A stretch of 36,092 nt of DNA, taken from Betaproteobacteria bacterium (GTDB lineage: Bacteria > Pseudomonadota > Gammaproteobacteria > Burkholderiales > Gallionellaceae). The stretch is taken from positions 1 through 36,092 of the forward strand of contig JAGVIV010000029.1 in NCBI GenBank assembly GCA_020055845.1, read 5' to 3'. Position 1 is the stretch's first letter. Every line of letters starts with the position of its first letter. Under the pieces are notes generated by a model that worked only from the letters and a program-made list of their open reading frames with translations, did no database searches and was not told the DNA's origin. Below, piece after piece: positions 26,720-31,616 of this stretch. The position numbers were made by a program, and so were the translations under genes.

Positions 26720-27661
26720 TTACGCACCCGCGCCTCCCGTATATTCGGCCACACGCAAAACGGCACTGCGCGCGCGCGGATTGAGCGCCAATTCCCGCTC
26801 CGAAGCATGGATAGCCTTACCAACCAGTTTCAACTTTGCCTGCGGAATCTCTGCGGCGCGAATCGGCAGATTGCGCGGCAATTTGTCGCCCTGCGCCATG
26901 TCGCGCATAAAGCGTTTGACGATACGGTCTTCCAGGGAATGAAAACTGATCACAGCCATTCTTCCGCCCGCCCTCAGACTATCCATGCACTGCGGAAGCA
27001 CGCTCTCGAGTTCCTCGAGTTCGCGGTTGATATAAATCCGTACAGCTTGAAAGGTGCGCGTCGCCGGATTTTTCCCGGGCTCGCGGGAGTGCACATTTTT
27101 CGCGACAATTTCACTGAGTTGCCGCGTAGTGACGATGGGACTTTCCTGGCGCGCAATAACAAGCGCTCTTGCAATCTTCCTAGCAAACCGTTCTTCGCCG
27201 TAGTCACTAATTACCTCCGCCAATAAGCCTTCATCTACCGTTGCCAACCATTGCGCCGCGGTCTCGCCGCGACTCGTATCCATACGCATATCCAGCGGCG
27301 CGTCAAAACGGAAACTGAATCCGCGCTGCGCATCATCCAGCTGCGGCGACGACACCCCCAGATCCAGCAACACCCCATCCACCTTGTCGATTCCCAGCTC
27401 GCGCAACACCTCGCGCAAATGCTCGAAGCCGCTATGCACAATCTGAAAACGCGCATCCTGCAATGCTCGTCCCGCAGCGACCGCAACAGGATCTTTGTCC
27501 AGCGCGATCAATCTGCCGTGCGCGCCCAGCTGCTCCAGAATCAAACGACTATGCCCGCCGCGCCCGAAAGTGCCATCCACATACACACCGTCCGCCTCGA
27601 CCCGCAATCCCGCAACCGCCTCATCCAATAAAACAGTCGCGTGCACCAGACCTCCGGTCAC
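26720..27661 (-). CDS. rsmH: 16S rRNA (cytosine(1402)-N(4))-methyltransferase
   Basis: 313 aa; [59 protein letters not shown]. Confidence 0.97.
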
Positions 27662-28104
27662 AGCGTAAATCCCTCCAACTCCGGCGGCAGATCGCCGACA
27701 GCGAAGCCAACCATCTTTTCGTTCTGCGCCTGCCAGCGCGCCTCATCCCACAATTCGAATTTATTGCCCTGCCCGACCAGCATCACATGCTTTTCCAGCA
27801 CGGCATAAGTACGCAAAGTCGGCGAAACCAGCACGCGACCGGCAGCATCCATCTGCACATCTTCCGCATGCCCCACCAAGAAACGCTGCAGCGCGCGAAT
27901 GCGCGGATTGAAAGCGGAGAGCTGCATGAGCTTCTCGCGTATGGGCTGCCACTCAGGCTGGGGATAGAGCAACAGGCAGCCGTCGGCATCGGCGGTCAGC
28001 ACCAACTGGCCGGAGCAATGCGCGAGCAACATGTCGCGATGCCGTGCCGGTATCGCGAGCCGCCCTTTGCTATCCAGATTTAGTTGCGCCGCCCCCTGAA
28101 ACAT
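27658..28104 (-). CDS. mraZ: transcriptional regulator MraZ
   Basis: [27 protein letters not shown] with second AbrB-like repeat ([14 protein letters not shown]). ATG at 28104. Confidence 0.96.
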
Positions 28105-28127
28105 CTCTTGAATCCCGAATTCATTTA

Positions 28128-28161
28128 CCCACAAAAACCCACTTTTCACCACTCCATGCCA
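28128..28161 (-). promoter_or_regulatory. MraZ-binding box array (TGGCA-N5-TGGTG-N5-TGGGT-N5-TGGGT)
   Basis: Minus strand TGGCATGGAGTGGTGAAAAGTGGGTTTTTGTGGGT; four TGG starts at exact 10-nt spacing directly upstream of mraZ, two of them TGGGT. Confidence 0.8.
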
Positions 28162-28189
28162 CTATATTGAAAAAAATGCACAGGGTCAA
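28161..28189 (-). promoter_or_regulatory. sigma70-type promoter of the dcw cluster (Pmra)
   Basis: Minus strand TTGACC (28189-28184), 17-nt spacer, TATAGT (28166-28161). Confidence 0.85.
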
Positions 28190-28723
28190 GCCAAAAAACA
28201 GGTTTTTTCGTTACGGGACAATGAGTTAGCGCACTTGATTAATGCAAAATAAATATGCTTAAAAAGCAATAGATTGCGCAATCAAGCTAAAGTTGTTTGT
28301 TACGGAGGGCCTATATATTTCGGCGAAATGGCCCTCAAGAGTGAGGACGAGCCGCAGGGACTGTCGAACTGAATTTGATATATCTAACGATTGATTTGCT
28401 TTTACTTCTGCGGGGGAAATTGTTTGACGGAATTATTAGTAAAGATACCGGGTTGAAAATTATTTCCGTGCATGCAGTATCTCTTTACTCAAGCCGAAAG
28501 TTGTAAGGCTTCTCGCTGGTTTCCGCTATGTGCCAGAAGTGGCCGCTCGTATCTCCCCCCCAGAGAAGACATTCACTTCCGTCCGTACTATTATGTATAT
28601 GAGGAACAATTGTTAGAGCGTATTTCAATGAATCAATTGCTTATCGATAATGTGCATTCCACACTATTATCAATAGTACAGACCGGTGGGTCTGTCTAAT
28701 AACTGTTAGGGCTATCATCCAAA

Positions 28724-29065
28724 ATGAGCAGCAATTCTCACAATTCCAGCAGATCGCAACTTGCGAAACATTTTGGTAGGCGGAAGATTTTTTGGGTTAG
28801 TCTCATTTCAATTGCTGTAATTGCTGAGTGGGCATTCGTAATGAACGGCCCTGTTGGTGATCCGACAATTGTCAAAGGCAGCATCACTCAACAGTGTGTC
28901 CCCTTTGGAAAGCAGAGCATTTTTTTTCATTGCACCGCGCAGTTACAGGATGGCTCTTTTCAAGTATTCTCTACACTGGCACCAGTCGCATCTGGTGCGC
29001 CTGTTTTATTCTTGCGTTACAGCCGTCGCTTTTGGGGGAGCCACTATGAAGCCAAGTCTTACTAA
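28724..29065 (+). CDS. cassette 1 ORF: hypothetical single-TM protein
   Basis: 113 aa; TM-like FWVSLISIAVIAEWAFVM; stop lies 9 nt before attC1. Confidence 0.7.
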   Translation: MSSNSHNSSRSQLAKHFGRRKIFWVSLISIAVIAEWAFVMNGPVGDPTIVKGSITQQCVPFGKQSIFFHCTAQLQDGSFQVFSTLAPVASGAPVLFLRYSRRFWGSHYEAKSY

Positions 29066-29074
29066 GCCGTATAG

Positions 29075-29143
29075 CCCTAACCTAACGTTCGAGCGGGACT
29101 GCCGCGAAGCAGCCCGCGTCAGCCCCTCAACTTTACGTTAGAG
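29075..29143 (+). other. attC site 1
   Basis: CCCTAAC-CTAACGT-TCGAGCGGGACTG...CAGCCCCTCAACTTTAC-GTTAGAG; GAG-c-GGG-a-CTG pairs with CAGCCCCTC leaving extrahelical bases. Confidence 0.88.
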
Positions 29144-29151
29144 AGCACACC

Positions 29152-29697
29152 ATGATGAGCCGGTTCTTCCTCTTATTGCTGAGTTGCCTATTGGCACAAA
29201 CGACTTTTGCTGGCGACACGCCTCATGTTGATAAGAAGCTTGATTCATTGCTTGTCTATGGTCAGGGGTTCATTTTTTCGGTTAAGGAGCCAGCGGGCTG
29301 GAAAGGTGACACCGTAAACGCAGCGCAATTCTCGACAAACATAATCTTTTATCCGGCATCCCAGTCACTGGATAAAGCCCAAACCATTATTCGTGTTCTT
29401 GTAGCTGACAAGACCGACGAGAACATCAATGAAGACTTGGCTCATGACATGACCGGTTATCGCGAGCAGTATCCCAACGTCGTTTTCAAGGAGCTCGCCA
29501 TTTCTCACCCCAAGTACCAAGTGTTTCCAAAGCTTTTTACTGTACCGGGCAGCTTCTACGAATATGTTGCTTATGTGAATCCAGGCCCCACCAAGAAATT
29601 GATGTTCTCCGTTTCAATGAACAAACAAATGAAGGAGGCTTCTGAACTTGAGCTTGATGTTTTTCAAAATATCATTGCATCGCTACAAATGCTATGA
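29152..29697 (+). CDS. cassette 2 ORF: hypothetical secreted protein
   Basis: 181 aa; signal peptide MMSRFFLLLLSCLLAQTTFAGD; start 9 nt after attC1 R' box, stop 4 nt before attC2. Confidence 0.75.
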   Translation: MMSRFFLLLLSCLLAQTTFAGDTPHVDKKLDSLLVYGQGFIFSVKEPAGWKGDTVNAAQFSTNIIFYPASQSLDKAQTIIRVLVADKTDENINEDLAHDMTGYREQYPNVVFKELAISHPKYQVFPKLFTVPGSFYEYVAYVNPGPTKKLMFSVSMNKQMKEASELELDVFQNIIASLQML

Positions 29698-29700
29698 GCT

Positions 29701-29778
29701 CTCTAACCCTGCGCTCAAGTTCGCTCCCTCCGGTCGCTGGGACGCGCCTGCGGCGCTCCCCTTAGCTACACGTTGGGC
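29701..29778 (+). other. attC site 2
   Basis: CTCTAAC-CCTGCGC-TCAAGTTCGC...CCCTTAGCTACAC-GTTGGGC; R'' CTCTAAC is the complement of the upstream GTTAGAG. Confidence 0.88.
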
Positions 29779-29782
29779 GTCT

Positions 29783-30178
29783 ATGAAGCTCTTAGCTATG
29801 TGCCTTCTTTCGTTTGCCTCTTGCGCTGCGTCGGCATCTCCTTGCGATGGTGTAGATCGTTCGCTTACCAAAAACCGAAAGAGCCAACTTGCTCCGGTCA
29901 TTGCCAAGCAGCTCAACATCGAGTCAACCGAAATTCTCCAGTCTTACCGCTACCGTGGTTGGTACATCATCTACGTTGGCACACAGGTGTCTGATGAAGC
30001 ATTTTTATTTTTCAGCGGTGATCCAACGCAAGGCAAATACCTCACCACTTGGGGCGGTGGTGCTGCGGCAAGTGAAGAGCCCGAAATCAAGCAGTGGGTT
30101 CTCAAGAACGCAAAAGGCATCCCATCAAAACTAGCTGGTTGCTTTGCATGGCATGTTACGAAGGATCGCGACCAATGA
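29783..30178 (+). CDS. cassette 3 ORF: hypothetical secreted protein
   Basis: 131 aa from ATG 29783: MKLLAMCLLSFASCAASASPCDGVDRS... signal peptide; the longer ORF from 29648 reads through attC2. Confidence 0.72.
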   Translation: MKLLAMCLLSFASCAASASPCDGVDRSLTKNRKSQLAPVIAKQLNIESTEILQSYRYRGWYIIYVGTQVSDEAFLFFSGDPTQGKYLTTWGGGAAASEEPEIKQWVLKNAKGIPSKLAGCFAWHVTKDRDQ

Positions 30179-30182
30179 AAAC

Positions 30183-30245
30183 GCCCAACCCGGCAGTCGA
30201 GAGGGACTGCGCAAAAGCGCGCAGCCCCTCACTTTTACGTTGAAT
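30183..30245 (+). other. attC site 3
   Basis: GCCCAAC-CCGGCAG-TCGAGAGGGACTGCGC-AAAAG-CGCGCAGCCCCTCACTTTTAC-GTTGAAT; R'' GCCCAAC is the complement of the upstream GTTGGGC. Confidence 0.9.
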
Positions 30246-30430
30246 GTCTGCTTTCTGAAGTCCCATCTGTCTGCAACGGGTCGGGAGCAGAATCTGGTAA
30301 CTCATCAAGTCGGTGCCAGCTTAAAGATAGATGCCGGCAACATTCCCTTTGCCCCCCACATCCAGCTTGAGATTTTCACCGGAATTGCGGCTCGACACTT
30401 CGGAGACGCGCATATAAATCTGAATAGAAT

Positions 30431-31171
30431 TTACTCGGCTGATGCCCCGCAGCATTTTTTATATTTCCTGCCGCTGCCGCAAATACATGGCGCGTTGCGG
30501 CTTATTTTGAGATTTTCATTTGCCGAAGATTTTCCGTTCATGCGTTCACTTTCTGCACGTCGCTGCGGAGCCCAGTATTTGAAAATCCAGCCGACGCTCG
30601 CGGGAATTGTTTTGGACAACTCTTCCCGTTGCACGGGTGTCTGTACCAGTGTCTCTTCTTCCTCGCTCACGTCTTCCGCGCCCAGCAAGTAAATCGGACG
30701 CAACATATCCGCACCGTGTTTGGATTCAAATAATGCCTTCCAGCTATCGCGCTGGAGCTTGATAGCGGTCATGTATCCATGCGCCCACATCTCGCCGTCG
30801 ACATACTCGCGTTCATCATCCTGATAGACATGCAAGTCAAACACCGGCTCGAAGGGTTCGTCTTCCTGCTGCAGATTCCAAACGATGGCATTCAGGTGGC
30901 GCGTCATCAAACCGATGATGCGTTCTTCCTGGGCTTTCGTCTCAAATGTGGGCGCATCTTCATCCTCCGGCCCCCACACACGGGGAAGCCAGTCGCCTTG
31001 AGTTAATTGCACGGGAGCGGATGCGATCGCGGTTAGATAGCCATCGAGGCAATCCAGTAACATGACCTCGTTCGAGGTGGCATCGGACATCAGAAAGTTG
31101 TCGAGTTCATCCATCTCCACATCGGATAGTGCTGGCTCAATTTCCATCGGTTCAAAATCTTGATTGGGCAT
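30431..31171 (-). CDS. UPF0149/YecA-family protein with C-terminal SEC-C zinc motif
   Basis: LDNFLMSD...LDGYLTAIASAP...LPRVWG, C-terminal ISRNAPCICGSGRKYKKCCG. ATG at 31171 (MPNQDFEPMEIEP); the longer ORF start overlaps rnpB. Confidence 0.85.
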   Translation of the reverse strand: MPNQDFEPMEIEPALSDVEMDELDNFLMSDATSNEVMLLDCLDGYLTAIASAPVQLTQGDWLPRVWGPEDEDAPTFETKAQEERIIGLMTRHLNAIVWNLQQEDEPFEPVFDLHVYQDDEREYVDGEMWAHGYMTAIKLQRDSWKALFESKHGADMLRPIYLLGAEDVSEEEETLVQTPVQREELSKTIPASVGWIFKYWAPQRRAESERMNGKSSANENLKISRNAPCICGSGRKYKKCCGASAE

Positions 31172-31265
31172 GATGACGTTACTTTCTTTCCTGAACGATT
31201 GGGTGTCGTGCTGTGCGCGATGATTGTGGGTGGCTCGGGATATTTCTCTGAGACGGATCTGAAAA

Positions 31266-31616
31266 AGGTGAAGCCAGCCGGTAAGCCGGGTTCTGTCGTG
31301 GACAGTCATTCCTCTAGGCGTTTCGTTACCTGACGCTCAAGCAACCTACCCGCAGGCGACGCGAGCAACGTCATAGCCTGCTTATTTGGTCTTGCTCCGG
31401 ATGGGGTTTACCCTGCCACTGGTGTTGCCATCAGCGCGGTGAGCTCTTACCTCGCCATTTCAACCTTACCGTTTCCCGAAGGAACTTAGGCGGTGTATTT
31501 TCTGTGGCACTTTCCATCGCCTCACGGCGTCCGGTCGTTAACCGGCATCCTGCTCTATGGAGCCCGGACTTTCCTCCCCGTCCTTGCGGACGCGGCGACT
31601 GTCTAGCCAGCTTCGG
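31266..31616 (-). ncRNA. rnpB: RNase P RNA component (class A)
   Basis: Minus strand 5' GAAGCTGGCTAGACAGTCGCCGCG, GAGGAAAGTCCGGGCTCC, 3' GACAGAACCCGGCTTACCGGCTGGCTTCACCT. Confidence 0.95.

Follow-up and report, generated by a model that had tools for sequence, protein, structure and literature searches.

A probable integrase-less integron platform between mraZ and rnpB, and its dispersed relatives in the Gallionellaceae

How does a short array of gene cassettes come to stand between the dcw cluster and rnpB with no integron integrase beside it? The array lies in a stretch of 36,092 bases (hereafter the window, meaning the whole of the DNA that was analysed) from a genome of the Gallionellaceae, a family of iron- and nitrite-oxidising bacteria. 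A first-pass annotation, made from the window alone, had read it as a cryptic CALIN, a cluster of attC sites lacking an integrase. Our analysis indicates that the window probably holds an integrase-less integron platform, one member of a family dispersed through the Gallionellaceae, whose cassettes were placed by an integron integrase acting formerly in cis, or in trans. The platform begins with an attI-type head (attI-B), which carries a promoter-like sequence and a short leader ORF; three cassettes joined at G/TT follow, and a conserved 3′ segment closes it.

The cassette array and its surroundings

A home-made scan for attC motif and fold gave about 10 matches per shuffled window and did not discriminate, and a covariance model was used instead. 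Eighty-eight attC-like sites were gathered from 40 array-bearing loci of this and related genomes, and the model (R1) was trained on 31 of them, none from the window. The attC helices of the training set covary, with 82 double-sided changed cells against 39.7 ± 5.0 in shuffles. Across both strands of the window, R1 returned exactly three matches, all on the forward strand, and no further attC site up to E = 10. The sites occupy 29075–29143 (attC1; 71.6 bits, E = 5 × 10−16), 29701–29778 (attC2; 45.4 bits, E = 2.3 × 10−9) and 30183–30245 (attC3; 76.6 bits, E = 2.7 × 10−17), coordinates identical to those proposed independently in the first-pass annotation. Sites near-identical to attC1 are present in genomes G001 and G006; attC2 shares 92–93% identity with attC sites of the IntI-A array of G008, and attC3 shares 89% identity over 45 nt with an attC of the resident IntI-A integron (L010:2136–2180).

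The G/TT cores at 28705, 29137, 29772 and 30239 delimit three forward-strand cassettes, at 28706–29137, 29138–29772 and 29773–30239, and bear out the lengths of 432, 635 and 467 bp previously assigned to them. The core at the start of each cassette matched the reverse complement of that cassette's own R″ over 11, 10 and 9 nt, respectively, while off-diagonal pairings gave 3–5 nt, as is characteristic of gene cassettes. The final core, at 30239, pairs with no R″, which indicates that the array stops there. Judged by its sequence, the array works like the variable region of an integron.

One ORF was found in each cassette, at 28724–29065 (113 aa), 29152–29697 (181 aa) and 29783–30178 (131 aa), all on the forward strand and opposite, as had been noted, to mraZ and the dcw cluster. 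By eye, each protein begins with a signal peptide or membrane segment: one apparent transmembrane segment in the first, and signal-peptide-like starts in the second and third. None of the three matched a Pfam family above cut-off or any NCBIfam family. Plasmid relatives of the cassette 1 ORF were looked for and none was found. Of the 159 genomes, five others, all outside the genus, encode relatives of the cassette 3 protein at 47–57% identity; its plasmid relatives are hypothetical proteins of at most about 36% identity. The AlphaFold model of the cassette 2 protein was uninformative (pLDDT 40), and that of cassette 3 (pLDDT 71) gave no significant match in the PDB.

The array stands in a low-GC island, as the annotation had it, with 42–50% GC over 28000–29750 against 55–63% in most of the flanking sequence. 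To its left lies mraZ (27658–28152, reverse strand). Its placement between dcw and rnpB holds with one amendment, namely that a UPF0149/SEC-C gene (30431–31177, reverse strand) intervenes before rnpB (31266–31614, reverse strand), which is followed by ppx. Two genomes of the same genus, G003 and G005 (loci L107 and L108), have the order ppx–rnpB–mraZ with only a short spacer between rnpB and mraZ, and neither the array nor the UPF0149 gene in it. A third genus mate (L094; G004:C1:52000–60000) carries a different attI-B array, which lies between ppx and rnpB and runs the opposite way with respect to dcw. The insertion of the present array is therefore lineage-specific, and this short neighbourhood has been struck two times, once to each side of rnpB, with the arrays oppositely oriented. 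A conserved syntenic block without cassette turnover, the contrary case raised in the first-pass annotation, is not what these relatives contain. The UPF0149/SEC-C gene, absent from this place in the three genus mates and placed elsewhere in relatives, has also arrived or moved here. An empty chromosomal site with a target duplication was sought as well, and the intergenic DNA of relatives proved too divergent for this comparison.

The conserved ends of the element

The extent given in the first-pass annotation was right for the three cassettes, and its CALIN coordinates stand, but the bounds were too narrow for the element, which reaches both ways, from about 28521 to 30297. What had been missed was the attI-type head with its promoter-like sequence and the conserved 3′ segment. 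Comparison of the array DNA with relatives showed that the stretch 28510–28710, up to the first G/TT, is repeated elsewhere. Seventeen copies could be aligned over about 130–200 bp and diverge past the crossover. When the whole family was searched, 73 of 159 genomes gave a match, nearly always one that ended at the crossover G/TT. Within this stretch attI-B was located at 28580–28709 on the forward strand, with its crossover G/TT at 28705 (model R2, 113.6 bits, E = 1.1 × 10−32). In 31 of 39 loci the core that follows attI-B and the R″ of the first attC downstream of it agreed over at least 6 nt, compared with 17% of mismatched pairs; the end of the element is thus the point at which cassettes dock.

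The 130-bp element is homologous to a site that is adjacent to and divergent from intI and ends at the crossover. At L104, L179 and L207 (genomes G022, G066 and G150) attI-B directly adjoins and diverges from an intact gene for an integrase, IntI-B, and in G148 its neighbour is an IntI-B pseudogene with four stops. These positions, beside the intact gene at three loci and beside the pseudogene at a fourth, make the element very probably the attI of another integron type. From the same adjacency in four loci, together with homology, attI-B may be taken as the substrate that IntI-B cuts. The 5′ and 3′ parts of the window element are those of a complete integron whose IntI-B is intact in three genomes and a pseudogene in the fourth.

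Upstream of attI-B, at 28521–28579 on the forward strand, lies the element's left end (CCGCTATGTGCCA...GAGAAGACATTC), with an approximate boundary. It is common to other orphan copies: when 54 left flanks were compared, 39 resembled at least one other. A promoter-like sequence, AAGACA-17-TATTAT, was found on the same strand at 28566–28594; it scored 9/12 in a consensus scan for which 2.4 matches are expected by chance in the region. Across 35 copies, its −10 region, TACTATTATG, belongs to the most strongly conserved columns. This promoter-like site, a putative Pc, reads into cassette 1, which renders the label 'cryptic' doubtful. A forward-strand leader ORF of 23 codons, MNQLLIDNVHSTLLSIVQTGGSV, runs from 28628 to 28699 and ends just before the crossover, and a leader ORF of 22–24 codons is kept in 43 of 51 copies. 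The attI1 of class 1 integrons likewise contains a leader ORF, ORF-11. Substitutions give no support for coding constraint on the leader ORF (mean dN 0.28, dS 0.35), and the hairpins of the leader are not supported as a conserved RNA structure (consensus energy about 0, a single pair with double changes).

At the other end, about 45–58 bp following the last attC are common to many loci. In the window this 3′ segment (TTGAATGTCTGCTTTCTGAAG...GGGTCG; model R3) lies at 30240–30297 on the forward strand and forms the right end of the element. Outside the training set, R3 matched downstream of attI-B, and co-oriented with it, at L093, L196, L191, L201, L190 and L208; it also matched at the right-hand end of L179, an intact IntI-B integron that belonged to the training set, and gave no match in IntI-A arrays. 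A 3′ segment lying downstream of an attI-B head points to an element with two conserved ends around variable cassettes. By R3 and BLAST, the left and right ends are both conserved and are not recognisably copies of each other. The idea that the flanks are two copies of one dispersed direct repeat was discarded, as R3 matched right ends and almost no left flanks. No contiguous empty copy, with attI-B joined directly to the 3′ segment, was found in 159 genomes. The attI-type head and the conserved 3′ segment, common to many loci, argue that the array is an orphan integron platform rather than a stray cluster of cassettes.

Integrases, a small recombinase and the dispersed copies

The statement that the window has no intI was upheld, as the TIGR02249 profile found nothing in its contig (C187). 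Three attC sites without a nearby intI are a CALIN by the IntegronFinder definition of at least two attC without a nearby intI (PMC9024848), and that classification stands. The intI in cis that belongs to a complete integron was found neither between mraZ and rnpB nor elsewhere in the window. Elsewhere in the genome, a single integron integrase scored above the family cut-off (IntI-A; contig C46, TIGR02249, 474 bits), accompanied by its own, different attI (...GTGTCTACTTTACGTT) and by two attC sites scored by the model. The genome is a MAG, 89% complete with 7.3% contamination, and an IntI-B gene could therefore be missing from the assembly. IntI-B is 87–95% identical among the three genomes in which it is intact, and 46–48% identical to the resident IntI-A. 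By eye, the IntI-A integron (L010:1270–3125) lies between tadA and NlpC/P60, lytic transglycosylase and trxB-like genes, and its second cassette has two overlapping ORFs that resemble, on sequence, a toxin–antitoxin pair.

Searches with R2 found more than 150 copies of attI-B in 90 of 159 Gallionellaceae genomes and in 11 of 15 genera, with up to six copies per genome and four in the present one. Exact-pattern matches came from Gallionella, Candidatus Nitrotoga, Sideroxydans, Sideroxyarcus, Candidatus Ferrigenium and one Nitrosomonadales MAG. Beyond the four IntI-B loci, nearly all copies examined are orphans with no intI alongside and with different cassettes. Among the 90 carriers, 33 have no integron integrase at all, including the single-contig genomes G182 and G153. 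When about 60 loci were compared, no two had a first cassette in common, and upstream flanks matched almost only through intI-B genes or genes for a small tyrosine recombinase (TR). Carriage of attI-B by phages or plasmids was not borne out: searches of PLSDB and INPHARED gave no match, and the exact pattern did not occur in IMG/VR.

Individual loci vary in composition. In the present genome, contig C57 (L089, 7000–17000) carries TR, attI-B, one attC and the 3′ segment; C246:850–976 (L243) carries a divergent attI-B, with no attC found, and C62:2487–2540 (L244) a lone 3′ segment. At L255 (G176:C9:310500–316500), two divergent attI-B stand back to back about 1 kb apart, each with its own attC sites. 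At six positions (L104:4993, L122:5038, L123:5097, L197:2353, L198:4172 and L173:2250) an attC is cut, or continued, at its R′ box by sequences that recur in different genomes, CTACAWGGGCTTCCCC and GTTGANGCTGTAGAAAAACC, as if insertion elements target attC in Gallionellaceae. A further sequence, GTTGAACTAAACCGCTRWCGCGG, starts right at the attI crossover both in L129 (G017:C46), beside intI, and in L185 (G112:C10), at attI-B. It is possibly another element that targets attI, and in L129 it is followed by an ORF resembling a tyrosine recombinase.

The TR protein, of 204 aa, is encoded beside several attI-B copies. In 42 genomes, 10 TR copies of at least 86% identity were found, six of which lie within about 1.5 kb of attI-B (G000:C57, G176:C10, G140:C5, G150:C73, G148:C85 and, with a partial attI-B, G139:C16); none of the lower-identity copies in these genomes is near attI-B. 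TR relatives are present on 446 plasmid records. A separate contig of the present genome, C165 (L012, 3451 bp), is filled by three co-oriented tyrosine-recombinase-like frames in a row, of 442, 432 and 339 aa, which look like a recombinase trio.

Origin of the platform and its place among known systems

A platform of this make-up would descend from an IntI-B integron through loss or replacement of intI-B. Its cassettes would have been inserted by an integron integrase, either IntI-B formerly in cis or an integrase in trans, for which the resident IntI-A is a candidate if it accepts attI-B. The putative promoter would express the first cassettes, and some copies may have spread as units, possibly by means of the linked TR.

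How the integrase-less form became so widely distributed could be explained in several ways. A full IntI-B integron may have decayed in place, independently at each locus, with the integrase-less form immobile, which is in line with the proposal that CALINs are degraded integrons (PMC9024848). Two loci fit such a loss of intI-B: in G148 (C85) the order is TR, intI-B pseudogene, attI-B and array, and at G150:C73 TR lies 121 bp from attI-B, in the place expected for intI-B, in what looks like a deletion. Against decay in place, many orphans have a common left junction that is missing from the intact IntI-B loci, and up to six copies occur per genome at unrelated sites. Moreover, G065 carries two copies that agree at every base over 155 bp, from ATGTGCCAT up to the crossover, while their left flanks are unrelated and their first cassettes differ, a pattern that points to recent duplication. 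As a general account, decay in place is conceivable and seems doubtful.

Alternatively, the orphan form may itself be mobile by means of TR, in which case copies lacking TR, that of the window included, would be non-autonomous. In L089 and L172, what lies between TR and attI-B can be aligned with the left end of the window element. The preference of close TR copies for attI-B (six of 10, and none of lower identity) and the plasmid-borne relatives of TR also speak for movement of this kind. The orientation of TR and its distance to attI-B are variable, however, most leader loci and many carriers lack TR, and neither a target duplication nor an excised form was observed. Transfer by TR must be considered rather unlikely as the explanation.

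Finally, IntI-A on C46 might have added cassettes singly to a chance attG-like site by mraZ, leaving a plain CALIN, an origin that is accepted for CALINs (PMC8618304) and agrees with the intact IntI-A integron in this genome and with the likeness of attC3 to its attC, but this is very improbable. The target is no chance sequence: the 130-bp element recurs at many unrelated loci and is linked to intI-B, and conservation extends to the right end.

The preferred reading, an orphan platform derived from IntI-B integrons, can be set against known arrangements. Like a CALIN, the window array has at least two attC with cassettes, few in number, and no intI nearby; unlike one, it begins with a conserved attI-type site bearing a promoter-like sequence, ends in a conserved 3′ segment and belongs to a dispersed family. 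It resembles a complete sedentary chromosomal integron in an attI homologous to those of L104, L179 and L207, in docking at G/TT and in a right end like that of L179, and differs in having no intI in cis and several copies per genome instead of one locus. Insertion at attG likewise leaves cassettes away from the resident integron's integrase. Its target, however, is a single, ordinary ancestral sequence, uninterrupted in relatives, whereas here it is the conserved, repeated attI-B element. Class 1 integrons, with their 5′-CS and 3′-CS, also hold variable cassettes between two conserved segments and share possible movement as a unit. The 5′ segment here has no intI, there is no qacEΔ or sul1, and the sequence is unrelated. 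A MITE-flanked class 1 integron was reportedly described by Gillings in 2009; around the present element no such pair of repeats was established.

Complete integrons and CALINs are of roughly similar frequency, and the latter are mostly put down to decay or off-target insertion (PMC9024848, PMC8618304). In the open-access literature searched, a single paper names both the Gallionellaceae and integrons, each one time, and no description of such a platform family was found. IntegronFinder does not search for attI outside class 1 (PMC9024848), and the models of attI-B and the 3′ segment (R2 and R3) supply an attI family for annotation there. The action of integron integrases in trans also becomes testable: Candidatus Nitrotoga sp. 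M5, matched to G150, combines an intact IntI-B integron with orphan copies in the same genome. It is a tentative, rather less than even, prospect that the platform is mobile without an integrase of its own, in which case TR would spread promoter-bearing docking sites, several to a genome, which a shared integron integrase would supply in trans and which would give one cell multiple expressed first-cassette positions. More generally, a family that joins conserved ends to a high copy number, and whose cassettes were different at each locus examined, suggests a third state beside decay and off-target insertion, in which integron platforms may persist and disperse in the Gallionellaceae without an integrase.
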